Source of the DNA: a virus
Length of the DNA stretch: 21,904 bases
Virus record (IMG/VR): IMGVR_UViG_3300037674_000253
Location: 1 to 21,904 of that record
Reading direction: 5' to 3' (one strand)
This document shows, piece after piece, positions 8,974 through 21,763 of this stretch. Position 1 is the first letter of the stretch. The number at the start of each line of letters is the position of its first letter. The position numbers and the translations under genes are program-made. The notes below the pieces were generated by a model, which was not told the origin of the DNA, searched no databases, and was given only the letters and a program-made list of their open reading frames with translations.

Positions 8974-10527
8974 TTATCGTTTTCCAGCAACCTTTAATTC
9001 AAATTGCATCCTGCCTAATAATGGGTTTGAAGCCCCTAACATTTGCACCTTAATATTCATATAACGTCCAGACGTTCTAAAGTCTAACTTATAATCCGTA
9101 GTGGGATTAAATGTCTGTAAAGAGTATACCGCAGTATCAGTGATACTATTGGTTCCAACTACACTAATCTGTACACTATTCATAGAATCAAGATGGATAG
9201 CGTTTATCCATTTATATGCACTGTCTTTGTAGTTATCATTAACCCTTATGAAGAATCCATTTTCCTCAAACACCGTACTTGATAGTGTTTGAATTTCAGC
9301 CGCAGCACCTTCTTTAGCTGCATAAATCTTAAGCTCTCCATTTTGCTCTGTTTCAAAAGCATCGGATATGTTTGGCAAACTTCTTAAGTGTAACTTTCTA
9401 GTGCTATAGTCAAATACAAAAGCCCTGTCACAACCATCGCCACTAATAGTTTTAGATGGGAAGCAAAACCACACTTCTTTATCTCTAGTCTGTTGGAAGC
9501 AGAACGACTTGTCCTTCTTAGTAGCCTTTACAGAGTTAAACATTACATCTTGGAATAATCCTTTAGCAATATCTTCTTTCTGTGATTGACCATCATGAAG
9601 GTACACTCCATAGTTTCCAATAACCAAGTGCTGTGCGTTTCCTATATTAGCAAAACATCTTGCAGAGTAAATACCATCATCTTCAAAGATACTTTCAAAA
9701 GCTAGTACGTATGTGTCACCAGTCTCTCTAACCCTTATGACAGCATCTGTCTTATAAGCAATAAAGTATTCTCCTAGCTGACCACCATCAAGTATCTTGC
9801 CGGGCGTCTCAACTGCAAAGGCATCGCCAGCAGTGTTAATACCATCGTAAGACCACTCTACGGCATCTATACTTCCAATCCCAGTTATGTGGGATGACCA
9901 TAAAATATCAATAGGAAGAAACTCATCGTCGTCCGCTGTTGCTTGGTGCTCTTCAAATATATTCATAGCCATCAATCTATTGTTGAATGGCTTTAATATT
10001 CTTGTTACTAATTTTGAACCATGAGAATCACTAGGCCAATTTGGTAGCGTAACAAGACTTCCTGCTGTGTTCACATCGTCTGAAAACATTGGAGGAGCAT
10101 CGTTAGCTGGATTAACAATCAACAGTTCATTGAACACATAAATCTGTGGAGGGTATCTGTCATCAAAGGTAAACTGATTAGGTGTAAGCGCGTTAGTAAG
10201 GTTTAAGTATGTTGAGGTTCCTGTGTTGTACGTTACAACGTGACCATCTCCACTAGCATCCTTTACGATGTAAGCTATTACAAGGTTGTTACCACCGGCC
10301 TCCAAGAACTGGGTGACCGCCATGGCCTTTCCGTCTCGAATACCAGTGTTAGAACTAGTGAATAAAGGAAATCCATCTTCAAATACATTAACACCTTGAA
10401 CACTACCGTCCTTGCATCTAATATTTAAGCAGTCACTCCATGCCCCTTGAGGTAGAGAGTGACTCGGAACATCTGTAATTAAACCTACGGATGAGAAATC
10501 AACCTCTGGTGTTTTAGTAAAAGACAT
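8974..10527 (-). CDS. Tail hub / virion stabilisation-like structural protein (517 aa)
   Basis: The N-terminus (LPQGAWSDCLNIRCKDGSVQ) has the 'G.W.d..NirfrdGsvq...G' form seen in large phage structural proteins that sit between portal and tail tip in short-tailed phages, such as the P22 gp10-type stabilisation proteins and their marine relatives. The body is beta rich and repetitive in a propeller-like way (short strands with W, Y and G turns, for example DAVEWSYDGINTAGD). No signal or membrane segment. AAGGAG five bases before the ATG is the strongest ribosome binding site in the window. It is followed after 12 bases by the tail fibre gene. Assignment is by general resemblance and position. 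Confidence 0.6.
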   Translation of the reverse strand: MSFTKTPEVDFSSVGLITDVPSHSLPQGAWSDCLNIRCKDGSVQGVNVFEDGFPLFTSSNTGIRDGKAMAVTQFLEAGGNNLVIAYIVKDASGDGHVVTYNTGTSTYLNLTNALTPNQFTFDDRYPPQIYVFNELLIVNPANDAPPMFSDDVNTAGSLVTLPNWPSDSHGSKLVTRILKPFNNRLMAMNIFEEHQATADDDEFLPIDILWSSHITGIGSIDAVEWSYDGINTAGDAFAVETPGKILDGGQLGEYFIAYKTDAVIRVRETGDTYVLAFESIFEDDGIYSARCFANIGNAQHLVIGNYGVYLHDGQSQKEDIAKGLFQDVMFNSVKATKKDKSFCFQQTRDKEVWFCFPSKTISGDGCDRAFVFDYSTRKLHLRSLPNISDAFETEQNGELKIYAAKEGAAAEIQTLSSTVFEENGFFIRVNDNYKDSAYKWINAIHLDSMNSVQISVVGTNSITDTAVYSLQTFNPTTDYKLDFRTSGRYMNIKVQMLGASNPLLGRMQFELKVAGKR

Positions 10528-11371: not shown

Positions 11372-11634
11372 CGTAAATTCTCCGTTCGATAGTTATGGAT
11401 AATCGATATCATTTGATCCAGCTTATCATCGATGGACGCAAACATTTCTTTATTATCCTGTTGAATGGTAACGATCTGTTGCTGTATATGCTTCTGCTCT
11501 GCCTGCATCACCGCAATGTCTTGCCTTATATCTGTAACATACATTAAGGCCCCAAATATTAAAGCCCCTGTCGTCAGTAGGTGGCTAATGCTTACCGATC
11601 TACTTAGGTGCCATTTATCTTCTCTAATGCTCAT
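11368..11634 (-). CDS. Small membrane protein with coiled coil (88 aa)
   Basis: One membrane segment is visible at about residues 15-33 (SISHLLTTGALIFGALMYV), followed by a heptad-like, Gln-rich region from about residue 36 to 82 (MQAEQKHIQQQIVTIQQD). A short N-terminal cytoplasmic part, one membrane helix and a long coiled coil is the plan of inner-membrane spanins (Rz-like), and small proteins of this form are common in phage lysis cassettes. No outer-membrane lipoprotein partner is seen nested in it, so the spanin reading is uncertain. GGAG lies four bases before the ATG. The end overlaps the next gene by four bases. Confidence 0.7.
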   Translation of the reverse strand: MSIREDKWHLSRSVSISHLLTTGALIFGALMYVTDIRQDIAVMQAEQKHIQQQIVTIQQDNKEMFASIDDKLDQMISIIHNYRTENLR

Positions 11635-12049
11635 AATTCTCCATTGGTGTTAGCATGAATTCTCTCTCGTAGTATTTTCTTATATCGGGGACCACACCGG
11701 TAAACGGTAACGGCAAACCCATCTTCTCTATAATACCTTTGTACTCATCTTCGCTGTCTTTGTATATTACGAAGTGAGGGTCGTTGTTATAAAGTAGGTC
11801 AGGGTCATTAATAAGCTCGTTAAAGTCTTCTTTAAAATCCTCTGATATCCACTGTGCATAGCACAATGCAACTACATATGACTTAGCAGGATACATCCAG
11901 CCAGTATCTTCTTTGGGTTTTTTAATGTAATCAACACAATCCCCAACTATCGTGTCGTACCTATATTGAATATCCTTATCTGAAAGATCATCTCCGAAAT
12001 CATCATTCATTCTGTGATACATCTCTTGTCTAATTTTCCAGTCCTTCAT
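11624..12049 (-). CDS. Hypothetical protein (141 aa) at the end of the radical SAM cluster
   Basis: An acidic, aromatic-rich protein without signal peptide or membrane segment (WKIRQEMYHRMNDDFGDDL at the N-terminus). It has two cysteines, too few for an Fe-S cluster on its own. No family is recognised. The start lies two bases after the last radical SAM gene, with GGAA upstream, and its 3' end overlaps the first small membrane protein gene by 11 bases. It could belong functionally to the modification cassette or be a small virion or lysis-region protein. Confidence 0.75.
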   Translation of the reverse strand: MKDWKIRQEMYHRMNDDFGDDLSDKDIQYRYDTIVGDCVDYIKKPKEDTGWMYPAKSYVVALCYAQWISEDFKEDFNELINDPDLLYNNDPHFVIYKDSEDEYKGIIEKMGLPLPFTGVVPDIRKYYEREFMLTPMENYEH

Positions 12050-12051
12050 AT

Positions 12052-12957
12052 TTATTCCATATGTTCTTTGTCGTAATAATCCAGCAACCCTATGTATCCA
12101 TTACAAGAGTTATCTAGATTCTCTACATATCTATAGTGCTCTGTCAGACAAGTTCCAAGATACTTACAACTATTGCATATATCAGAAAGCTCAGCCTTTT
12201 CACGCTCACACCATTCGAGGTATTCTTTAAAGTTATCAAGTTCTAAGAATAGCTCTTTGTCATCCTTGTCAAAATCTAATACACCAAACTTGCCATTAGG
12301 CGTGATGTATATATGGTCATCAGAGAATGCGTTGTACTCCTTCTTTAACGACTTTTCAATACTTCTTTTGTTGCCAAAGGTAAAGCCTTTTGGAACATCA
12401 CATTCAAGCCACTTTATCACAAAGTCTTCATAATCCTTATGAGTTACATTGAAGGAGTTGGCTTGATTTATAGAGTATGGTTTAATCTCTACGCTGTCCA
12501 AGTTACGCAATATGTTGAACTGAGAAACCATTGAATCAACATCCATCTTAATAACGTCTTCTGTAGCTAATAGCAATACAGAATACCTTTTAGGAGACAT
12601 TAGCATATTAGAGAATACTTGTGCATGTCTCTCTCTTCCGGTAAAGTCATACGACACCGAAAGGGATATATCATCAGCAAAGAAGTTATCACTAAGCATG
12701 GAGAAGTTAGTTATGATGTTTATCTCACCCTTATAGTGCTTCCTTATAGTCTTTTTTAGTTTTTTAAAATATGTTGAACTTAGTGCTCCTATTTCACCAC
12801 CATAAAGGTCTATATAGTCTATCTTGGGGACTTGCTTTAATAGGCTGTCCAAAACCCTTAAGTCTATCCTCTTTTGGTCGTTAAGTTGTTCAGGTGTTAA
12901 GTAGCAAAACTTACAACTGAAGTTGCAGAAGTATGAGGGGTTGATTGAGATATTCAT
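12052..12957 (-). CDS. Radical SAM protein 7 (SPASM/twitch-like, short)
   Basis: A 301-residue enzyme with C11-NFS-C15-KF-C18 (INPSYFCNFSCKFCYLTPEQ) and G53-G-E55 (IDYIDLYGGEIGAL). The C-terminus has a single auxiliary set, C261-X2-C264-X5-C270-X14-C285, preceded by a typical strand (HIYITPNGKFGVLDFD) in which the cysteine usual for full SPASM domains is absent. It is therefore nearer to twitch than to full SPASM proteins. The start overlaps the JmjC/cupin-type gene by four bases (ATGA). It is the last radical SAM gene of the cluster. Function by family: radical chemistry on a peptide or protein; exact reaction unknown. Confidence 0.9.
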   Translation of the reverse strand: MNISINPSYFCNFSCKFCYLTPEQLNDQKRIDLRVLDSLLKQVPKIDYIDLYGGEIGALSSTYFKKLKKTIRKHYKGEINIITNFSMLSDNFFADDISLSVSYDFTGRERHAQVFSNMLMSPKRYSVLLLATEDVIKMDVDSMVSQFNILRNLDSVEIKPYSINQANSFNVTHKDYEDFVIKWLECDVPKGFTFGNKRSIEKSLKKEYNAFSDDHIYITPNGKFGVLDFDKDDKELFLELDNFKEYLEWCEREKAELSDICNSCKYLGTCLTEHYRYVENLDNSCNGYIGLLDYYDKEHME

Positions 12958-13337
12958 ACTTCAATACTTAGTGTTATTGAGTCATACCTATTAACACCTC
13001 TATGAGGGCTACCTGCGGACACATATAAAGAAGATGTTTCATTAATCTCTACAGTCTCTCCGTACACCTCAAAAAACTTTGTACCTTCTATGCTAGCTAT
13101 TACTAGGTTCACATCGTCAGTGTGTGTATCGAATGAAGCGCTTCCAGCTGGAGAGATAAAAGCATGTACAGACTTTCCCCACTTATGAACTGACTCTAAC
13201 CCCTCTACCTTAACAACAAAAAACCCTTCACAGACCTTAATAACAGCCTCAGCTTTTGTTAACTCAAAATCTCTTCCATCATTATCGATGTAAAAGAACC
13301 TATTGCCAGCACTCAGTAACTTAACTTTTTTATTCAT
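12954..13337 (-). CDS. Minimal JmjC/cupin-type protein, putative Fe(II)/2-oxoglutarate oxygenase
   Basis: A 127-residue protein whose C-terminal half reads like the core of cupin_4/JmjC oxygenases: an H-x-D pair at H72-T-D74 (SFDTHTDDVNLV), a following 'EGTKFFEV' strand with K87 where family members often hold 2-oxoglutarate, and the distal histidine at H112 in YVSAGSPHRGVN, followed by SITLSIEV. In that family the HxD...H triad binds Fe(II), and members hydroxylate proteins such as ribosomal subunits. This protein is much shorter than the cellular enzymes (usually above 350 residues), so it may be a bare catalytic barrel or a non-enzymatic cupin. It is joined to radical SAM genes on both sides by four-base ATGA overlaps, which makes a shared substrate plausible. 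Confidence 0.75.
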   Translation of the reverse strand: MNKKVKLLSAGNRFFYIDNDGRDFELTKAEAVIKVCEGFFVVKVEGLESVHKWGKSVHAFISPAGSASFDTHTDDVNLVIASIEGTKFFEVYGETVEINETSSLYVSAGSPHRGVNRYDSITLSIEV

Positions 13338-14296
13338 CTTATTTCCATGCTAAGAAGCCTACCTTCAAGTTGCTTCATTTCAAAACAATGTCTACCTTGC
13401 ATATCAAACCTCTTATGGTCTTTTATAGTCTTAGAGCAGCCGTTGCACAGATTGAACAATGGGCAAGTAAAACACCAGTTGTTCATCGATAACAACTCAG
13501 GGTCGTCTCTAAAGTTGTCACCTATAGGATACTCTTTGTCATCGGCAAAAGATCCGCAAGTGTATTGGTCGGCTTCTGGTTGTATGCATCTGATACCTTC
13601 GTCACACTTTCTATTTCTTGGACAGGTTGTATCTTCTCCAGCCATAGACTTTATTATGTCTTTTGTGTTGTACTCCCACTCCTCTAGACCTTGGTCATAT
13701 ATATCTAAATATATACTATATATATCAGCAAGTAATAGTGGTTTACCTTGTGAGCCGGAGGCCATGGCATAATTGAGCTTACACTCTACACCCATCTTTT
13801 TTGCTAACTTAACATTGTCAATAGCTATGTCTTGCTCACCATCAACCACAACAGCGATAAAATCTGGTCTATAACCTATTCTATCTAACATTGAGTCTGA
13901 AACGCCCCAGAAGTCCTCTTCTGTGAACATAGAGTAGTCACCCTTGAGTCTGCCACCTCCGTATTGGAAAGATGTCGTTACGGCCATTCTAGGGTGTTTG
14001 AACAACTCATCCCACTTTTTAGTCTTATAAAAAGGCCATAGATTGGTTGTAAACGATATAGATGTGTCCATGTCGTGTTCGTCAAGATAGTCTATTATCT
14101 GATAGTAATATTCGGGCTTGACCATCAAAGGGTCTCCACCATTTACTATAACGGTTCTTGTGTCTGGGTGCTCGTCAAGAAACTTAAATATCTCGTTGAT
14201 ATCTAGTAACTTGGCACTATCTTCCGATATGTTTGAGCTACTACAGAAGGTGCACTTGAAGTTGCACAGCTCTGTCGGTTTTATTATTAAGTCCAT
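13334..14296 (-). CDS. Radical SAM/SPASM protein 6
   Basis: A 320-residue enzyme with C11-NFK-C15-TF-C18 (MDLIIKPTELCNFKCTFCSS) and a GGD variant of the SAM motif, G53-G-D55 (VIVNGGDPLM). The C-terminus is cysteine rich: C225, C231, C237, C247, then C275-X2-C278-X5-C284-X2-C287 and C304. The last pair is CX2C where the standard SPASM pattern has CX3C. The ATG has GAGG seven bases upstream inside the preceding gene, and the core motif at residue 11 rules out a later start, so 56 bases are truly read in two frames. The gene ends in ATGA overlap with the JmjC/cupin-type gene, arguing for coupled synthesis. Confidence 0.92.
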   Translation of the reverse strand: MDLIIKPTELCNFKCTFCSSSNISEDSAKLLDINEIFKFLDEHPDTRTVIVNGGDPLMVKPEYYYQIIDYLDEHDMDTSISFTTNLWPFYKTKKWDELFKHPRMAVTTSFQYGGGRLKGDYSMFTEEDFWGVSDSMLDRIGYRPDFIAVVVDGEQDIAIDNVKLAKKMGVECKLNYAMASGSQGKPLLLADIYSIYLDIYDQGLEEWEYNTKDIIKSMAGEDTTCPRNRKCDEGIRCIQPEADQYTCGSFADDKEYPIGDNFRDDPELLSMNNWCFTCPLFNLCNGCSKTIKDHKRFDMQGRHCFEMKQLEGRLLSMEIR

Positions 14297-15257
14297 ACAT
14301 TAACCTCTTAGGCGCGGGACATTGTGTGTCCCAATCTAGTTTGTAACAATCACCACCGCACTGTCCGAAAACTTCGCACGGTATGCATCTCGGGTCTATA
14401 AGAGCCTCTGTGGCTATCATACAGCCTCTTTTCTCATGGTTCAGTATACTGTCTATGTCATCACCTATGTGGGCATAATGACTAGTGGGTGCGCTATTAG
14501 GGCAACCGGCTATTGTCCCGTCTGCATTAATCGTAAACATTATCTTTTCACAGCCTCTGCAAAAGGTGGAGTTCCTGTTGCCGCCGCCCTCAAACTTAGC
14601 GTAAATCGATTCGAGAAGTACGTTATTAAAGTAACCCCTGTCATTAACCTGATGCATCTCCCATATCCAATCATCTATTTGGCGATTAGTTGGGAATATG
14701 TGGGGGTTTCTTTCAGCAGACCCATCGTGTGTGAGCCTCTCAAAAGCAACCTCTCTTAAACCTAACTCTTTAAACAAGGCTAAAACACCAGTGGGGCTTC
14801 GCTTTATAAGTTGCGTATTCATTGACACAAACAACTTTATATCAACACCCAAAGCAACTAGTAAGCGCACGTTATGTTTCCATAGGTCGTACTGCCTAAC
14901 ATTTGCCCATCGAATTCCCTCGTCCCAAGATGTTGCTATTCTACTTGATAATTCATTTTGTATGAATGACAACTTCTCTGGCGTGAGCTTGTGTGTGAGG
15001 TTAGTAGTAGCTCCAAAAGATGCTTTTTTATTCTTTTCAGACACAAGCTTGTAAAATGTACGCATATCCTCTAAGGGCGCTAAGAACGGCTCTCCACCAT
15101 GGTAGTCTATGTGTATCTGCTCATCTGCAAAGTTATTTACAAAGCTAGCAGTGGCAACAGGATCAAAGTATATCTTCCTCCCGTTTATACCACTAGTAAA
15201 ACAGTGGGAGCAGTTAAGGTTGCACGTCTCTGTCGTCTTTATGTAAAATATTTTCAT
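14241..15257 (-). CDS. Radical SAM/SPASM protein 5
   Basis: A 338-residue enzyme with C12-NLN-C16-SH-C19 almost at the N-terminus (MKIFYIKTTETCNLNCSHCF) and G54-G-E56 (IHIDYHGGEPFLAPL). The SPASM region is complete: C233, C236, C252, C279, then C291-X2-C294-X5-C300-X3-C304 and C313. The stretch KIMFTINADGTIAGCPN around C252 is the hallmark 'G.i..Cp' strand of SPASM proteins. Of the seven enzymes this looks most like a standard peptide maturase. The cysteine motif lies only 12 residues in, so the start at 15257 is firm and the 44-base overlap with the preceding gene is real. Its own 3' end overlaps the next gene by 56 bases. Confidence 0.93.
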   Translation of the reverse strand: MKIFYIKTTETCNLNCSHCFTSGINGRKIYFDPVATASFVNNFADEQIHIDYHGGEPFLAPLEDMRTFYKLVSEKNKKASFGATTNLTHKLTPEKLSFIQNELSSRIATSWDEGIRWANVRQYDLWKHNVRLLVALGVDIKLFVSMNTQLIKRSPTGVLALFKELGLREVAFERLTHDGSAERNPHIFPTNRQIDDWIWEMHQVNDRGYFNNVLLESIYAKFEGGGNRNSTFCRGCEKIMFTINADGTIAGCPNSAPTSHYAHIGDDIDSILNHEKRGCMIATEALIDPRCIPCEVFGQCGGDCYKLDWDTQCPAPKRLMYGLNNKTDRAVQLQVHLL

Positions 15258-16284
15258 TTGACTCCATGTAGTTGAACCACATTCTCATAACACAGTCAGG
15301 AAGATCTCTTATTCTGTTCTTCCAATCCCATTGAGTGTAACACCTAAACCCACACTTATTATACCATTTACAAGACAGGCAACCGTACTCGTCCATATAG
15401 TTCTGCATCATGGAGGTGTTGTCTTTTCTGTCTAAAGGAGTGTTAAAGTCAGACTCATCATACCTATCCCATCTACAATTAGATGTAGTATTGTCAGGAA
15501 AGATAGTGACTTTGTTTAGCGCCATGCAATGCATTTCATTGTTGTCGTTTCTTATTAGTCCAGAGAATGGAGCGATGTCTGGATAATTCTTATAAACAAA
15601 CTTTAAAAACCTAAGGTATAGCGAGTCAGATGGTATCTGGTGGTCCTCACCTTTATCTGGTATGTAGTCATCAAAGTAGAAGTTATCGAACTTTTCATAC
15701 AGGTACTCAAAGTAACTGTCTCCAGTCAAAGACATAGCCATAAACTTATGTATTGACTCTGTAGTGGCCACCATGTTTATAGAGATGATGTAGTCGGCAA
15801 AGTAATCTATATTCTTTGCATATGGGCCTTTAACAGGCCTTCCATCAAAGTCATAAGAAGCTATCAAGTAAGACGGAATTCCTTTTGCGACCATGTTATC
15901 AAGCATTGTCTTAACTAGTTCTCTTTTGGAGAATTGAAACGATGTAACCCATACAACCTTTATATCATAGTCGTGCTTTTTATAAACAACCATTATCTCG
16001 TCCATCAGCCTTTCATAGACTTCATAAAGGTGCGAGTGCCTATCTTGAAGCAACTCTCCACCAACCATGTTTATCTGAACAATATCAACAGAATCCCTAA
16101 GCTTTACAAGATGCTCCTCAACAAGAGATACCTTTGACAGTATCTCCTTCTCGGTTAAGCCGACTGTTGACTTTTTATCATGATGGCAAAAAGAACAATT
16201 AAGATGACAGTTTTCAAATAGTGTAAGCTCTATTTCTCCAATGAGGGGTCTTTTGTTTTCTAGTAATATTCTAGTATTGTTCAT
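15214..16284 (-). CDS. Radical SAM/SPASM protein 4
   Basis: A 356-residue enzyme with the classical radical SAM core: C26-HLN-C30-SF-C33 (IELTLFENCHLNCSFCHHDK) and G75-G-E77 (INMVGGELLQ). The C-terminus shows a full SPASM pattern of seven cysteines: C253, C270, then C302-X2-C305-X5-C311-X3-C315 and C331, able to hold two auxiliary [4Fe-4S] clusters. In known families this pattern belongs to peptide maturases (sactionine, ranthipeptide, PqqE, mycofactocin types) and anaerobic sulfatase-maturing enzymes. The upstream gap of 27 bases is the largest in the window and carries GAGG about ten bases before the ATG. The 3' end overlaps the next gene by 44 bases. Confidence 0.92.
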   Translation of the reverse strand: MNNTRILLENKRPLIGEIELTLFENCHLNCSFCHHDKKSTVGLTEKEILSKVSLVEEHLVKLRDSVDIVQINMVGGELLQDRHSHLYEVYERLMDEIMVVYKKHDYDIKVVWVTSFQFSKRELVKTMLDNMVAKGIPSYLIASYDFDGRPVKGPYAKNIDYFADYIISINMVATTESIHKFMAMSLTGDSYFEYLYEKFDNFYFDDYIPDKGEDHQIPSDSLYLRFLKFVYKNYPDIAPFSGLIRNDNNEMHCMALNKVTIFPDNTTSNCRWDRYDESDFNTPLDRKDNTSMMQNYMDEYGCLSCKWYNKCGFRCYTQWDWKNRIRDLPDCVMRMWFNYMESNENILHKDDRDVQP

Positions 16285-16311: not shown

Positions 16312-17508
16312 TTATACTACGTCTAACTCGTCCGTCATATACTTCAAGGCGTCTTCATTCCATAAATGACCACCCCTCTCTGAAGGGTTATACCTTGCCA
16401 ACACGTCGCTTGGCACTATCTCTTCATCTAAAGACAAGTCCATAGCCTTTATAGCTTCCCATAGCAACCTATTAGCCATAGAGATTAAATATGGAGAGTC
16501 TTTATACAACGGATGAATTGACAGGTTTTTAATTCCGTCAAGGATAAGACTGTTGCGTCTATCAAGAATTTCTTCAAAACTAAGGCCGGTTACATTTGTA
16601 CCTTCATTTGTTAAGAAGAACGCTTGCTCATGCAACATCACATTCAGGTGTGTCTCTGGCCCATCTTTACCCATAACAACTGTTAGCCCAATAAAGTTCA
16701 TTGAGTTACAGTTAAGGTTAGCCATAGACATTGTTGCCTTGTCATAATTATCATCATCGATAACCCTTGACAGGAAACTATTCCAAGCTAGTAGGTTTTC
16801 TTTCTGCTTGTGTCTTGGTGCTCTTGAGAATGCCGGGTTCATCTCCAAGATGGTTCCGTAATCGTTTAGAGACTTGTCAAGCATTTTGTTGTATTGTTCT
16901 TTTGATGTCTTTTTACCCACCAGTGCTGAAGACTGTAATGTCCATGACCAGTCTATCATTTTTGGCGTATTGTGCTTAAAGAAGTCAATCCTACGCATAA
17001 CAGCGTCAAAGTACTCTTCATTATTAAGCATTGTCTCAGGATTCTCAACAGGCATGATAAACTCCATAATCATGTCTTCCCTATAGTTCTCAGGGTTATC
17101 AAGAATCTTAAATATCTCTTTGAATTTCACATCATTAACAAAGTCAAACTTAGCTGGTGTTGCGATTCTAGCATTCTCATGCTCTCGCATAATCTTTTGT
17201 GTAATACTGTTGTTTAGAACATCTATAGTGTTTGATGCTGTAAAGAAATCTGTAGGACCCAATACGAACTCTCTTAGGTTTAAACCAGAGGCCTTTACGC
17301 CATCGGCAAGCCTTTGAGCTTCCTCCAGCAATGGTTGTGCCAAGCTTTTTGGCTTGTGCTTATCCACAAAACAACCTGTACACCCGTGGTCACATCCTGA
17401 GAGCAACTCTACACTTATCAGAACATCAAACTTAACTTGGTCTTTTAGTGCTAATGATTCTGGTCCCGAATATCTCATAGCCTTGCAATAAGATTCCTGC
17501 ATACTCAT
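16312..17508 (-). CDS. Radical SAM protein 3 (GPTD type, auxiliary cysteines lost)
   Basis: A 398-residue radical SAM enzyme with C39-DHG-C43-TG-C46 (VELLSGCDHGCTGCFVDKHK) and G84-P-T-D87 (FVLGPTDFFTAS). It belongs with the two preceding genes by these motifs and by general layout, but its C-terminal third lacks the CX2CX5CX16C set. The equivalent stretch, around IKNLSIHPLYKDSPYLI, contains no cysteine. It should therefore carry only the SAM-binding cluster. Two explanations are plausible: it is a divergent catalytic member that no longer needs an auxiliary cluster, or it is a non-catalytic or partner subunit for its two paralogues. The start ATG has GGAG seven bases upstream and lies three bases after the previous stop; a second ATG two codons later is possible. 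Confidence 0.88.
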   Translation of the reverse strand: MSMQESYCKAMRYSGPESLALKDQVKFDVLISVELLSGCDHGCTGCFVDKHKPKSLAQPLLEEAQRLADGVKASGLNLREFVLGPTDFFTASNTIDVLNNSITQKIMREHENARIATPAKFDFVNDVKFKEIFKILDNPENYREDMIMEFIMPVENPETMLNNEEYFDAVMRRIDFFKHNTPKMIDWSWTLQSSALVGKKTSKEQYNKMLDKSLNDYGTILEMNPAFSRAPRHKQKENLLAWNSFLSRVIDDDNYDKATMSMANLNCNSMNFIGLTVVMGKDGPETHLNVMLHEQAFFLTNEGTNVTGLSFEEILDRRNSLILDGIKNLSIHPLYKDSPYLISMANRLLWEAIKAMDLSLDEEIVPSDVLARYNPSERGGHLWNEDALKYMTDELDVV

Positions 17509-17511
17509 ATA

Positions 17512-18672
17512 TTATCTCCTACTCTCATATATCTCTTTCAACCTATCAAGGTCTTTTATATTATCTTCATGGACCAAGAATTTCTTCCTATATCCTGCCT
17601 TATCCGACTCTACACTGTAATCAGACCAATCGTACATACTATTTGCAGCATGGCTTAATGCATACTTGTTTTTTATCATATTCTCTTTTGGACAAATGCA
17701 ACTCTCGGTCTCTAAGAACTTCATCAGCATTGGAATGCCTCTTGAAGCGCAAGATGTTAAAAAGTCACAATTTGTACACTCAGTCTCGTGAGAGTACTGT
17801 TCTACAACTTTGTTGTGAAAGTCTTGTATACCATTGACTTTAAACATATCGTCGTAAATAGCCATATTCTCGTACAAGAACGGTGATATGTACCAGTCAC
17901 CCCTCTTAAAGTTCAAGACCTTAAAGTTGTTACCAGAGTGTGAATGGTCAATCATTATGTTATTAGTGCCTGAACTAGATGGCAAATTGTTAAAGAAGGA
18001 GTTGACCTGTTCTATCCTGTCGAGTATCTTCTTCTTGTTACCACTTCTCGCAACTGATGGTATTAGATCAAAGGTTGTGTCAAACATGCTTGTGACATGG
18101 TTGTGTATCCTTTGGTAGTCTATCTCACGGTCTTCTATGTTCAGTAAGAATGTATAGGTTATATCGTGTTCAAGATTGTCGCTCAAGATAGACAGTTTGT
18201 ATTTAACATCCTCTATATACCCGATATCCATTAACGTCTCAGGATTTGTTGCTATTCCTATTTCTATCTCTGTATCGGTATTAATGTTCTTTGTAATAAA
18301 GCTACAGAACTTAAGTATATCCCCACCCATAAGCGTTGTTACAAAGGCTAGTATTGGTGAGTTATCATTAATAGTCTTTAAAAGGTCTTTATTAGAAAGA
18401 ATATCATAAAAGTTACTAGATGATAAGAAGTCGGTAGGGCCGATTAGTATCTCATCTACTAATAAACCCTCTTCTGTCATACTCTTAACTCTAGACATAA
18501 ACCCTGCAAGGTCGCTGTCAGACGGGGCGTTGTTTCTTCTGTTTACAAAACAGCCAGAGCAGCTGTGTTCGCACCTATCCAATACATCCATTTGTATCTT
18601 AATCGCAGAGACAGGTTTGGTCTTTGTTTCAGAGGTAAGCTCGTAATACAGGTTATTTTTGATTATTGGCAT
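17512..18672 (-). CDS. Radical SAM protein 2 (GPTD type, one auxiliary Cys set)
   Basis: A 386-residue radical SAM enzyme with C34-EHS-C38-SG-C41 in IKIQMDVLDRCEHSCSGCF, and G78-P-T-D81 at the position of the usual GGE motif (DEILIGPTDFLSSS). The auxiliary set is C299-X2-C302-X5-C308-X16-C325, the same spacing as in the preceding gene, with an extra C327. The segments around it also match (CASRGIPMLMKF here, CSERNVPLYMRS there), so the two arose by duplication. It carries about 55 extra C-terminal residues. The start has GAGGT six bases upstream and overlaps the preceding gene by 20 bases. The SPASM/twitch-like tail favours a peptide or protein substrate by family knowledge. Confidence 0.9.
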   Translation of the reverse strand: MPIIKNNLYYELTSETKTKPVSAIKIQMDVLDRCEHSCSGCFVNRRNNAPSDSDLAGFMSRVKSMTEEGLLVDEILIGPTDFLSSSNFYDILSNKDLLKTINDNSPILAFVTTLMGGDILKFCSFITKNINTDTEIEIGIATNPETLMDIGYIEDVKYKLSILSDNLEHDITYTFLLNIEDREIDYQRIHNHVTSMFDTTFDLIPSVARSGNKKKILDRIEQVNSFFNNLPSSSGTNNIMIDHSHSGNNFKVLNFKRGDWYISPFLYENMAIYDDMFKVNGIQDFHNKVVEQYSHETECTNCDFLTSCASRGIPMLMKFLETESCICPKENMIKNKYALSHAANSMYDWSDYSVESDKAGYRKKFLVHEDNIKDLDRLKEIYESRR

Positions 18673-19642
18673 ACATATACCTCTTTGGGATTATACAAGT
18701 CTCAATACCACGAGACCTCATGTACAACGGAACGTTCCTTTCAGAACAAGATATTATCCATTGGCAATCTCCGCACTCAGTGTCACCAGTCAGTACTATA
18801 TTACTAGCTACATTACATGAGTTAAGGTCGTCAACTTCAAACAAGTTATCTCTCTGAAGAACCCCGTCGAATATAAACGGGCTTATAAAGAACTTGTTGT
18901 TATAGAACGAGTAGTTAGTACAACCATAAGAGTTAAACTTAGAATCAAACATTGTGTACCACCCTAGAAACTCTGGGGCTATCTCCTGACCTTCTAAGTC
19001 CTTTCTAAAGTTTACAAGCATCTCCGAGACCTTTCCAGTGTTATTGTTATTCACAAAGAAGTTAGGAACAACAACAATTGGTGAGTTGTATCTGTCATGT
19101 ATCTGATAGGCCAAATCATTATAAGATATCTTATCGAACATACCCTTATGATAGTTAACCCTGAACTGTACAGAACCCTCTTTAAATAGTCCTAGCTTTT
19201 TATCGTCTAACCCATTTAAAAGGTAGCTATTTATATCCACAACAATCTTAAAGTCTATGTCAGGCTCTTCAGATACATCCCACAACCTCTTGTGCTTCTC
19301 TTTGATAAGGTTGTAGTCCTGCTTTAACGCGGATGTAAATGAGATACCTGATATGTCATACAGCTTTTGAAGGTAACGGTCCTCTAAGACCTCTTCAAAG
19401 TTTATAGCATCAAATATATCTGTCGGACCTATTGTTATCTCATCAGGGTAGAACGCAGACTCAAGCAACTTGTTATATAGTATCTCAAGATTGAATGAGC
19501 CGTTCTTCCTTGGTATGAAGCAACCATTACAGTTGGCGTTACAGCCACTTAATATATCAGCATGAACCTCTGACTTTAGGAAAGACTGCTCTCTGTCAAC
19601 ACCACCAAAACCAGAAGCGCCATTGTTAAGCTGTGACTTCAT
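18653..19642 (-). CDS. Radical SAM protein 1 (GPTD type, one auxiliary Cys set)
   Basis: A 329-residue radical SAM enzyme. The [4Fe-4S]-binding CX3CX2C motif is C34-NAN-C38-NG-C41, inside EVHADILSGCNANCNGCF. Where classical members have the GGE SAM-binding motif after the second strand, this protein has G72-P-T-D75. The C-terminus holds a second set C290-X2-C293-X5-C299-X16-C316, as expected for a twitch- or SPASM-like auxiliary cluster, which in known families marks enzymes acting on peptides or proteins. Only one Met precedes the cysteines, so the start at 19642 is forced. It has a weak ribosome binding site and overlaps the upstream gene by 17 bases, so coupling is likely. It is a paralogue of the next gene: identical N-terminal Cys positions and identical auxiliary spacing. 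The substrate is unknown; the nearby Cys-His protein is the best candidate. Confidence 0.88.
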   Translation of the reverse strand: MKSQLNNGASGFGGVDREQSFLKSEVHADILSGCNANCNGCFIPRKNGSFNLEILYNKLLESAFYPDEITIGPTDIFDAINFEEVLEDRYLQKLYDISGISFTSALKQDYNLIKEKHKRLWDVSEEPDIDFKIVVDINSYLLNGLDDKKLGLFKEGSVQFRVNYHKGMFDKISYNDLAYQIHDRYNSPIVVVPNFFVNNNNTGKVSEMLVNFRKDLEGQEIAPEFLGWYTMFDSKFNSYGCTNYSFYNNKFFISPFIFDGVLQRDNLFEVDDLNSCNVASNIVLTGDTECGDCQWIISCSERNVPLYMRSRGIETCIIPKRYMYANNQK

Positions 19643-20324
19643 CTTCAGTTATTAACTCTTCTGGAAAGAGGCTTAACACAAAGTTCACTACACCGTTCTT
19701 ATATAGCATGTGGAAGAGGTCTCCGCCATGATACTTAGATGCCTTGTTAAACAAACTGGTATTGATGCTCTTGTTTAATCCTTTCTCTGATATAACAAGA
19801 GCTAGAGAGTCTAATCCATCAGAAGTGATACTTAAGATGTTAAGGCCAGTAGCACTCTTGTTGTGCTCGGAGAACGTCATATTGTCATTTATACAAATAC
19901 CAGAGTCTTCATTGTTATTTATTGTATCAACAATATAAGAGGATATTCCAGACATATCATCGATTAGATCATCGATAACATCAATATTATCAACTAAGTA
20001 CTCCTCAATATCCTTTGCAGTAAACATAATAAGGCCATCAACAATCTCGTGCTTTAGTCTAAACCTTACAATATTACTAACAGTTCTGGTTAGCATATGG
20101 GATGATACTATAAAGTCTAGCTTAATAAACTCTGTCACAAGATCGTTATCAATCTTATTAAAGGCCGCAGTAAATCCTGTGTTCGACAGATAAATTAATA
20201 TCTGCTTAGCTGTCAAAGACTCTCTTGATTTAACATAATCAACAAAAAGAACAAATGAATCGTCCTCTAGTTTCTTTTTGTATATCTCAGTAAGATCTAT
20301 TGGATTTAATGGTAATGTGTACAT
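19626..20324 (-). CDS. Hypothetical acidic protein (232 aa) of the radical SAM operon
   Basis: Start ATG is preceded by AAGGA six bases upstream and lies nine bases after the 349-residue gene. The product is acidic and rich in Asn, Ile, Asp and Ser, with no signal peptide, no long membrane segment and a single cysteine (in GICINDN). A mid region (AKDIEEYLVDNIDVIDDLID) looks helical and strongly acidic. The C-terminus (FHMLYKNGVVNFVLSLFPEE) is hydrophobic. I see no known domain. The last 17 bases overlap the start of the first radical SAM gene in another frame, implying translational coupling. Like its upstream neighbour it could be a structural partner, a substrate-presenting protein, or a virion component. 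The sequence does not decide between these. Confidence 0.75.
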   Translation of the reverse strand: MYTLPLNPIDLTEIYKKKLEDDSFVLFVDYVKSRESLTAKQILIYLSNTGFTAAFNKIDNDLVTEFIKLDFIVSSHMLTRTVSNIVRFRLKHEIVDGLIMFTAKDIEEYLVDNIDVIDDLIDDMSGISSYIVDTINNNEDSGICINDNMTFSEHNKSATGLNILSITSDGLDSLALVISEKGLNKSINTSLFNKASKYHGGDLFHMLYKNGVVNFVLSLFPEELITEDEVTA

Positions 20325-20333
20325 TATGATTCC

Positions 20334-21383
20334 TTATATTAGTGGCTCTACCGTCCAAAATATATACGGTATACGCTTCATGCGTCTGTGAAAGAACTCT
20401 ACATCCGTCTTATCGATTGAATCAACACTCGTACCCTCTAAGAAATTGACCAAGATAGGTAATGAATGCTGAAGGTCGAAATAGATGTCGTAATACTCCC
20501 AGCTCTGATGATTCTTTAACTTATCTACTAGTCCGTCAACAGTTCCAACATATGCTATAAAGTCTCTAAGTGTATATAAGACCAGCGTATTGTTCTCTTG
20601 ATACCAAATGCTTTGAATGAAGGATTCTCTAGTGTATGTCGTGTCACCTTGTGCAACCAAGTAATCAACAATTCCAACAAGCGGAGAGATAATACTTGAG
20701 CGTGAGATTGTGGACTGAATAGCCTCTCCCACTAATTTTGAAGAATGGATTGCGTACTTCTCAGCTAAGATGCCGGCAGATACTGTGTTCCCCGACATAT
20801 GGTCTTGCATGTAAAACAACACGTCATATGACCAAAACTTACCGGGTGCAATCGTTCCAGAAGACTCGTATCTATCTTCATCAGCAAACATAGTCTCAAC
20901 TGTTGAGCCTACTAAAGCTACTGTTAGAGCCGTATTTGTCGCAAACTCTATATCTCTTTGCATAACACGAGTAGAAAGGTCGGTTAGCACATCGCTTGTA
21001 TAGTCGGCAACTCCACTTAACAGCCAGTCAGAATACTTTAGATAAACACGAAGCATGTCCGTTTCATCTGTAAACAGCATAAACACCTTGTCAGGGTTAT
21101 TAAGATAGTCAAGATTATCAGCTTCTGCGTAGCTCTTAAATGAGACAATCTCGCTTATTCCAGCATCATCAATAATAGGATTGTACTTCTTTACTGTATC
21201 GTGCACTGTGTTTTTAAAACTACCTTCAAAAATAGTGTCATCACCATGTCCAACAATCACTACTTTTCTTTGTGATGATGAGTTTGAGTAAAAAGACGCC
21301 ACTTCTTCCATTAGGCCGTCAAGACCAAGTATGGATGATACATATTTTTTATTGTTTAAATAATAACAACTTTGTTCTATCAT
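20334..21383 (-). CDS. Hypothetical protein (349 aa) of the radical SAM operon
   Basis: The frame is open from 21434, but the likely start is the ATG at 21383, whose A is the last base of the preceding stop (TAATG) and which has a strong GGGGGAG ribosome binding site six bases upstream. This gives 349 residues beginning MIEQSCYYLNNKKYVSSILG; the upstream Met would read back through the Cys-His tail codons in another frame. The protein has alternating hydrophobic strands and helices (KVVIVGHGDDTIFEG near the N-terminus, then VFMLFTDETDMLRVYL), no signal peptide and no clear membrane segment. It has a single cysteine near the start, so it is unlikely to hold an Fe-S cluster. I do not recognise the family. 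Its place between the Cys-His protein and the enzymes suggests a partner, scaffold, or a virion protein of the same system. Confidence 0.75.
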   Translation of the reverse strand: MIEQSCYYLNNKKYVSSILGLDGLMEEVASFYSNSSSQRKVVIVGHGDDTIFEGSFKNTVHDTVKKYNPIIDDAGISEIVSFKSYAEADNLDYLNNPDKVFMLFTDETDMLRVYLKYSDWLLSGVADYTSDVLTDLSTRVMQRDIEFATNTALTVALVGSTVETMFADEDRYESSGTIAPGKFWSYDVLFYMQDHMSGNTVSAGILAEKYAIHSSKLVGEAIQSTISRSSIISPLVGIVDYLVAQGDTTYTRESFIQSIWYQENNTLVLYTLRDFIAYVGTVDGLVDKLKNHQSWEYYDIYFDLQHSLPILVNFLEGTSVDSIDKTDVEFFHRRMKRIPYIFWTVEPLI

Positions 21384-21763
21384 TACCTTCTCCCCCTTGA
21401 GGTGTGACAATTTGTATGACAACTGCTGTGGCACACCTGTGCGTTCCAGCTTACATTACCTATAGCCCCCTCTATCTCATCCACAGCAGAGCGCACAGTA
21501 TTAACTATAGATGCTGCAACATCGTCAGCGTCTGCAATCAAACCAGAACCAATTCCACTATCTAGGTCGCCAGTAAAAACAGAAGAGGCTGCGGAGGTTA
21601 AATTCCAGTTTGGACTAGTTGCAGAAGTAGATGTCCCACTATCGGCACCGGTACCCTGTGTCCATACGGTAGCTGTAATCGTTATTGTTTTGTTAAATGT
21701 TCTTAATTGGTCTCTAGCGTTATCTTTTAACCATGTGTCTAGTTGGCTGGCTGTCATGCTCAT
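21383..21763 (-). CDS. Cys-His repeat protein, candidate substrate of the radical SAM cluster
   Basis: A 126-residue protein of no family I recognise. Residues 1-30 look like a short folded or helical segment (TASQLDTWLKDNARDQL). Residues 35-75 are rich in Gly, Ser, Thr and Asp and look like a flexible linker. Residues 76-101 are a probable amphipathic helix (ADADDVAASIVNTVRSAVDE). The C-terminus carries three Cys-His pairs exactly four residues apart (C111-H112, C115-H116, C119-H120), followed by TSRGRR. The only cysteines are these three. Start ATG has GGAG six bases upstream; an in-frame ATG two codons later is less well placed. The stop overlaps the next start as TAATG. A long N-terminal part plus a short terminal Cys-rich repeat is the usual plan of radical SAM-modified RiPP precursors, and seven such enzymes lie downstream. 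Alternatives: a metal-binding tail, or an unmodified small head protein. Confidence 0.85.
   Translation of the reverse strand: MSMTASQLDTWLKDNARDQLRTFNKTITITATVWTQGTGADSGTSTSATSPNWNLTSAASSVFTGDLDSGIGSGLIADADDVAASIVNTVRSAVDEIEGAIGNVSWNAQVCHSSCHTNCHTSRGRR
21386..21433 (-). other. C-terminal CHxx repeat tail (three Cys-His pairs plus RGRR)
   Basis: These 16 codons encode CHSSCHTNCHTSRGRR. The three CH pairs use different codons (TGC CAC, TGT CAT, TGT CAC), so the periodicity is kept at protein level and is not a fresh DNA duplication. Spacing of four puts the Cys and His residues on one face of a helix. The Arg-Gly-Arg-Arg codons (AGG GGG AGA AGG) also form the purine-rich ribosome binding site of the following gene, so the basic end may partly reflect that constraint. 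Proposed role, inferred: the site modified by the downstream radical SAM enzymes. Confidence 0.7.

Follow-up and report, generated by a model that had tools for sequence, protein, structure and literature searches.

An Invariant Cys-His-Arg Tail of Phage Proteins and the Radical-SAM Enzyme Cluster Linked to It

A C-terminal tail with three cysteines, three histidines and three arginines is widespread in many unrelated phages and in a few predatory bacteria, and its linkage to a cluster of radical-SAM enzymes is firmly established at the level of sequence. The protein carrying it, here called TAIL, was studied in an IMG/VR virus fragment of 21,904 nucleotides, which is referred to as the window. 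The tail very likely undergoes modification, and the explanation considered probable is a dedicated RiPP-like maturation system whose target is the C-terminal tail of a structural component of the phage, a virion or fibre protein in contact with the host. This points to a post-translational tailoring system of a previously undescribed kind. To our knowledge, this would be the first instance in which several radical-SAM enzymes form a pathway devoted to a structural protein of a virus.

The TAIL Gene in the Window

The TAIL reading frame lies on the minus strand, is preceded by AGGAG, and runs from an ATG at 21763 to 21386 followed by the stop codon TAA at 21385–21383 (Table 1). As stated in the preliminary description, its translation gives 126 amino acids ending in CHSSCHTNCHTSRGRR, and the CH units of the tail, which occupies the last 48 coding bases (21386–21433), are encoded by differing codons (TGC CAC, TGT CAT, and TGT CAC). 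The chance of finding CHxxCHxxCHxxRxRR followed by a stop in a random window of the same composition is about 7e-10. The absence of other cysteines holds for the protein of the window but not for the family, since 28 of 66 representative relatives contain further ones. Nor is TAIL likely to start its operon, as had been proposed: in contig L001, whose TAIL protein shows 100% identity and which supplies the upstream side missing from the window, the ORF of a collagen-like fibre protein terminates 10 bp before TAIL on the same strand. The predicted structure of TAIL is of moderate quality only (pLDDT 75, pTM 0.56), and a Foldseek comparison of this model with the PDB and a viral library gave no significant match and no known fold.

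Table 1: Features in and near the tail cluster (window positions unless a contig is named).
Feature	Position	Strand	Remarks
TAIL, 126 aa, proposed substrate	21383..21763	-	variable N-terminal part and invariant C-terminal tail CHSSCHTNCHTSRGRR
u349, 349 aa, no known family	20334..21383	-	window-type arrangement
u232, 232 aa companion, proposed recognition/presentation factor	19626..20324	-	
Radical-SAM-like, class B, CNANCNGC	18653..19642	-	
Radical-SAM-like, class B, CEHSCSGC, phrog_31457	17512..18672	-	
Radical-SAM-like, class B, CDHGCTGC	16312..17508	-	
Radical-SAM, class A, CHLNCSFC	15214..16284	-	
Radical-SAM/SPASM-like A1, distantly PapB-like	14241..15257	-	clade found immediately before TAIL in other phages
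Radical-SAM A2, CNFKCTFC	13334..14296	-	clade common to jumbo phages
Cupin/JmjC-type predicted Fe(II)/2OG oxygenase	12954..13337	-	HxD...H motif
Radical-SAM A3, CNFSCKFC	12052..12957	-	clade common to jumbo phages
u141, conserved small protein	11624..12049	-	cluster end in several phage types
Prepilin-start S74 tail-fibre-like proteins	L243:2055-3200, L244:14655-15692, L247:6547-7602 and 9220-10215		Bdellovibrionota, near the CH-tail cluster

Conservation of the Tail

A degenerate DNA pattern for CHxxCHxxCHxxRxR yielded at least 120 stretches in 2.9 million viral contigs; this pattern omitted the last arginine and the stop, both of which were included in the pattern used for genome contigs. 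After repeats of CH-rich codons had been removed from the matches, at least 150 tail ORFs (at least 129 of them distinct) were gathered in at least 125 loci, the window and contigs of bacterial genomes included. Among the matches listed, the three cysteines, three histidines and three arginines do not vary at all in 66 divergent representatives, and their codons are mixed, the first cysteine being TGC in 31 and TGT in 35. Residues invariant throughout the family sit solely in the last 16 positions of TAIL. As the final arginine and the stop lay outside the viral search pattern, their conservation counts in favour of the maturation system. Just three other ORFs among the matches listed have three CHxx units without the RxRR end, and these look low in complexity. 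By their N-terminal parts, the proteins sort into two large and 11 small groups with undetectable similarity between groups, and the length of the carrier protein is usually 120–300 amino acids.

A variable number of CHxx units, as envisaged in the preliminary description, was not observed: three is near-universal. The exceptions are the L041/L156 lineage with four units and the 356-kb contig L157 with five; radical-SAM genes and u232 are present in L157 too. The four-unit lineage of L041 is divergent and contains seven class A radical-SAM genes on long tree branches. The pattern search found no two-unit RGRR tails, the pattern missing those with a T at one flanking base, and tblastn with a 33-residue tail peptide, a query that is too short, returned 0 matches. 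Pattern matches in Frankia, Pseudoalteromonas and Bordetella were rejected as they yielded no tail ORF, and CH-rich low-complexity ORFs such as that of L059 were discarded as spurious. In phages of the window type, two paralogous TAIL genes frequently stand side by side, and a class B radical-SAM gene usually comes next (L008, L033, L042, L044, L056, L069, L083, L085, L103, L104, and others).

Linkage of the Tail to the Enzyme Cluster

The co-occurrence of the tail with radical-SAM enzymes proved to be near-perfect in both directions, for loci picked by the tail and for loci picked by u232. Radical-SAM genes are present at nearly every tail locus where the flanks permit. Most tail loci lacking them are cut short and L059 is spurious, which leaves L137 and L038. 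The tail ORF of L137 (L137:5203-5406) is truncated at the contig end, with 5.2 kb downstream free of radical-SAM genes and the upstream side missing, and L038 has no such gene in 3.2 kb upstream and just 304 bp of downstream sequence. In the reverse direction, 78 of 80 contigs picked by u232 alone encode both the tail, always with three units, and radical-SAM enzymes; the other two are truncated, their contigs starting 66 or 89 bp before u232. When A1 (in two versions) and u232 were compared by tblastn with the 50,697 phage records of INPHARED, both matched the identical seven records, each of which encodes the tail (Burkholderia phages FLC6, FLC8 and SURPRISE13, two entries of Agrobacterium phage Atu_ph07, Sinorhizobium phage Phosso, and Pseudomonas phage pPa_SNUABM_DT01). 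Tails that are common in the absence of radical-SAM genes, which would speak against a link, were looked for and did not turn up widely, the truncated case of L137 being the single clear exception. This nearly perfect two-way linkage, together with invariance confined to the last 16 residues, makes the tail very probably the substrate of the adjoining cluster.

At most loci the order of genes is cupin, radical-SAM A1, TAIL, u232, and further radical-SAM genes, and u232 usually adjoins TAIL or sits at a distance of one or two genes at most (104 loci). In the window type, TAIL comes first in one or two copies; in the window itself it is followed by u349, whose ATG shares bases with the stop codon of TAIL (TAATG), and then by u232, three class B radical-SAM-like genes, three class A genes, the cupin, another class A gene, and u141. 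The cluster of a Burkholderia phage includes two genes annotated as dihydrofolate reductase (L006:16828-18005), the first of which was confirmed by Pfam DHFR_1.

The Putative Modifying Enzymes

All seven radical-SAM ORFs reported beside TAIL contain CxxxCxxC, a motif found in more than 90% of the aligned members of the family. In a tree calculated by a quick method from 123 class A sequences, and showing some long branches, the genes at 14241, 13334, 12052 and 15214 belong to separate clades. The clades of the first three, A1, A2 and A3, are common to small and jumbo phages, and the gene preceding TAIL in other phages belongs to the A1 clade. The SPASM domain TIGR04085 scores 26.2 bits in ORF 14241-15257, the cut-off being 27, and comparison of the A1 sequence with solved structures gave no match. 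Viperin (NF038283) was considered for ORF 12052-12957, which scores 31.6 bits where the cut-off is 180; a role as viperin or in other defence was rejected, the matches being weak throughout.

Among the closest known systems are the ranthipeptide maturase PapB and the CXXX-repeat maturases, where likewise an enzyme of the radical-SAM/SPASM type stands by a substrate with a cysteine every four residues. The likeness of A1 is a distant one (59.5 bits for PapB, NF047865, with a cut-off of 340, and 33.1 bits for the CXXX-repeat maturase, TIGR04115, with a cut-off of 350), and the proposed substrate here differs in forming the C-terminal end of a larger phage protein and in its invariant histidines and arginines. 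QhpD is known to mature a protein subunit, and not a free peptide, by radical-SAM chemistry, and the proposed system resembles it in this respect. The QhpD model for quinohemoprotein amine dehydrogenase maturation (TIGR03906) gives 24.7 against a cut-off of 453, and that system uses a single radical-SAM enzyme, whereas the present cluster has up to seven or more and no enzyme subunit.

The cupin is a predicted 2OG/Fe(II) oxygenase, as its HxD...H iron-binding triad (H72, D74 and H112) is kept in 56 of 56 aligned relatives; K87 is kept in 55 of 56. It passes the Pfam cut-off of JmjC_2 (PF08007) with 23.8 bits, 22 being required. This family includes ribosomal arginine and histidine hydroxylases, and membership is suggestive in view of the many arginines and histidines of the tail. 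A predicted oxygenase of this type in the core of the cluster suggests that hydroxylation may occur besides radical-SAM chemistry. For u232 a confident fold was predicted (pLDDT 91, pTM 0.89). Foldseek found no PDB match for this model, and the best Z in VIA-align was 3.3 over about 50 residues. Pfam recognised no RRE-like domain in u232, which may nevertheless contain one.

Fibre-Gene Surroundings

Among the genes upstream of TAIL in contig L001 are those for a major head protein, for a virion protein and for two collagen-like fibres, along with three oxygenase-like genes; of the latter, two exceed the cut-off of PF13640. The fibres may possibly undergo prolyl hydroxylation. The region of the fibre and oxygenase-like genes (L001:5587-9991) immediately precedes TAIL; the two collagen-like fibres have GAT repeats, and a proline-rich protein with PSTPGNWNP repeats is also encoded there. 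The cluster of jumbo phages comes after tail or fibre genes. The window itself encodes a fibre-like protein of 1022 amino acids, in the long repeats of which IANNAIT/ANEIA motifs abound (window:5893-8961).

In Agrobacterium phage Atu_ph07, TAIL is gp170, the gene numbering matching that of the genome report at gp181, gp198, gp204 and gp215 (PMC6102473). According to that report, the virion proteins identified by mass spectrometry are mostly encoded by CDS 31-76, 170-215 and 284-329 (PMC6102473). As the first gene of the cluster CDS 170-215 is gp170, this boundary suggests that gp170 was detected and is part of the virion. The radical-SAM enzyme gp171 and the cupin gp172 fall into the same range, membership in which alone is no proof of presence in the virion. 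TAIL as such likely resides on the virion or fibre.

Proposed Maturation and Alternatives

In the proposed maturation system the phage-specific N-terminal part of TAIL would probably join the virion, and u232 would recognise or present the tail. A1 to A3, further class A and B enzymes and the cupin-type oxygenase would then modify cysteine, histidine and/or arginine of the tail, cross-linking or C-S bond formation plus hydroxylation being candidate chemistries. Once matured, the tail would remain part of the tail or fibre apparatus and do its work where this touches the bacterial surface. Invariance of the tail, two-way linkage, enzyme clades in common, the oxygenase motif, the neighbouring fibre genes, the position of gp170 in Atu_ph07 and the S74 genes near the Bdellovibrionota copies all support this explanation. 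The moderate TAIL model with its lack of a known fold and the tail loci L137 and L038 weigh against it.

TAIL had been proposed as a RiPP precursor with possible Cys-alpha or Cys-His cross-links. What was found is a ribosomal precursor with a conserved segment beside modifying enzymes, and its role as the substrate of the cluster very probably stands, the classical form of the idea being unlikely. There, the N-terminal part would be a large leader and the last 16 residues the core, and a free modified peptide would hit the host or competitors. The arrangement of precursor and enzymes, the C-terminal position of the core and the distant resemblance between A1 and peptide maturases like PapB would suit this. 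However, the cluster proteins scanned included neither a recognisable leader peptidase nor an exporter (one could be encoded elsewhere), and together with carriers of 120–300 amino acids and the fibre and virion context this argues for a structural protein rather than a released peptide. The carriers are also diverse, the gene stands among tail and fibre genes and, in Atu_ph07, opens a cluster of virion proteins, and the tail hardly varies even between phages whose hosts are unrelated, whereas antimicrobial cores are typically variable. A classical precursor is hence unlikely.

The invariant C-terminus could instead be a docking tag for the enzymes, the modified residues lying in the N-terminal part or in a neighbour such as the collagen-like fibres. 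Other possible substrates are indeed nearby, but the mutually dissimilar N-terminal groups offer no common target for conserved enzymes, as the tail does, and tails of four or five units look like iterated targets, which renders docking quite improbable. Cysteine-histidine repeats at a fixed period are plausible metal ligands too, and HxH motifs of T4 gp37 bind iron, so that in the setting of fibre genes the tail might be just a metal-binding tip with the radical-SAM genes targeting something else. The near-perfect linkage to u232 and the radical-SAM genes would be difficult to account for with enzymes acting on another target, and the invariant arginines are not usual metal ligands; such a tip is very unlikely.

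Relation to Published Phage Genomes

PHROGs holds relatives of TAIL from Burkholderia phages (phrog_35144), of u232 from Atu_ph07 (phrog_20767) and of the radical-SAM enzymes (phrog_1802); it lists the TAIL and u232 families as of unknown function and does not describe the connection of tail and enzymes. The enzymes have been reported without mention of the tail for Ralstonia phages RP12 and RP31 (PMC5468394), Burkholderia phage FLC6 (PMC8066314) and Aeromonas phage 332-Vera, where the number of radical-SAM genes was called highly unusual (PMC12390700). The present system may explain such numbers in some jumbo phages and supplies a testable substrate, and cultured carriers exist among Burkholderia, Agrobacterium, Sinorhizobium and Pseudomonas phages. 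Campylobacter phages CP220 and CPt10 have 11-12 radical-SAM genes per genome (PMC2853527); no match to A1 or u232 was found in Campylobacter phage records of the 50,697-record collection. In the literature covered, with most subscription journals outside its scope, no description of a Cys-His tail or of radical-SAM modification of a virion protein was found.

Occurrence in Bdellovibrionota

The cluster of some Bdellovibrionota sits on the chromosome, genes for pyruvate kinase, thiolase and other cellular proteins lying nearby, and no PF03237 terminase was found in the five genomes tested. Nine genomes with one tail apiece were collected. The tail is rare in this phylum, as a sample of 291 genomes had it in eight, all of them collected previously. 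The genomes are MAG or draft assemblies in which mis-binning of a single contig is conceivable, and the cellular genes on the same contigs argue against it for the three examined. No obvious signal peptide was found in the TAIL ORFs of Bdellovibrionota, which counts against the proposed system as far as the route to the surface is concerned.

A more general view, to which slightly less than even credence is given, is that phages and some predatory bacteria share an unrecognised virion and fibre chemistry, installing by multiple radical-SAM and 2OG steps a Cys-His-Arg tip which does the same surface job across many bacteria whatever the carrier. If true, its occurrence in Bdellovibrionota would connect the attachment chemistry of phages and predators. 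The MAT fibres of Bdellovibrio are phage-tail-fibre-like S74 proteins for prey contact which have a signal peptide (PMC10769870), and S74 genes are likewise found near the CH-tail cluster. TAIL itself differs from the S74 subfamily of MATs (MATs without S74 exist) in lacking this domain: Bdellovibrionota TAILs match phrog_35144 alone, and the TAIL of the window has no S74 match. In six of the nine genomes S74 fibre-like genes lie at most 14 kb away on the same contig, for which a post hoc estimate of chance gives about 1e-8. Unlike MATs with their signal peptide, the S74 proteins adjoining TAIL start prepilin-like; several near the cluster begin with such segments, and one passes the N_methyl cut-off.
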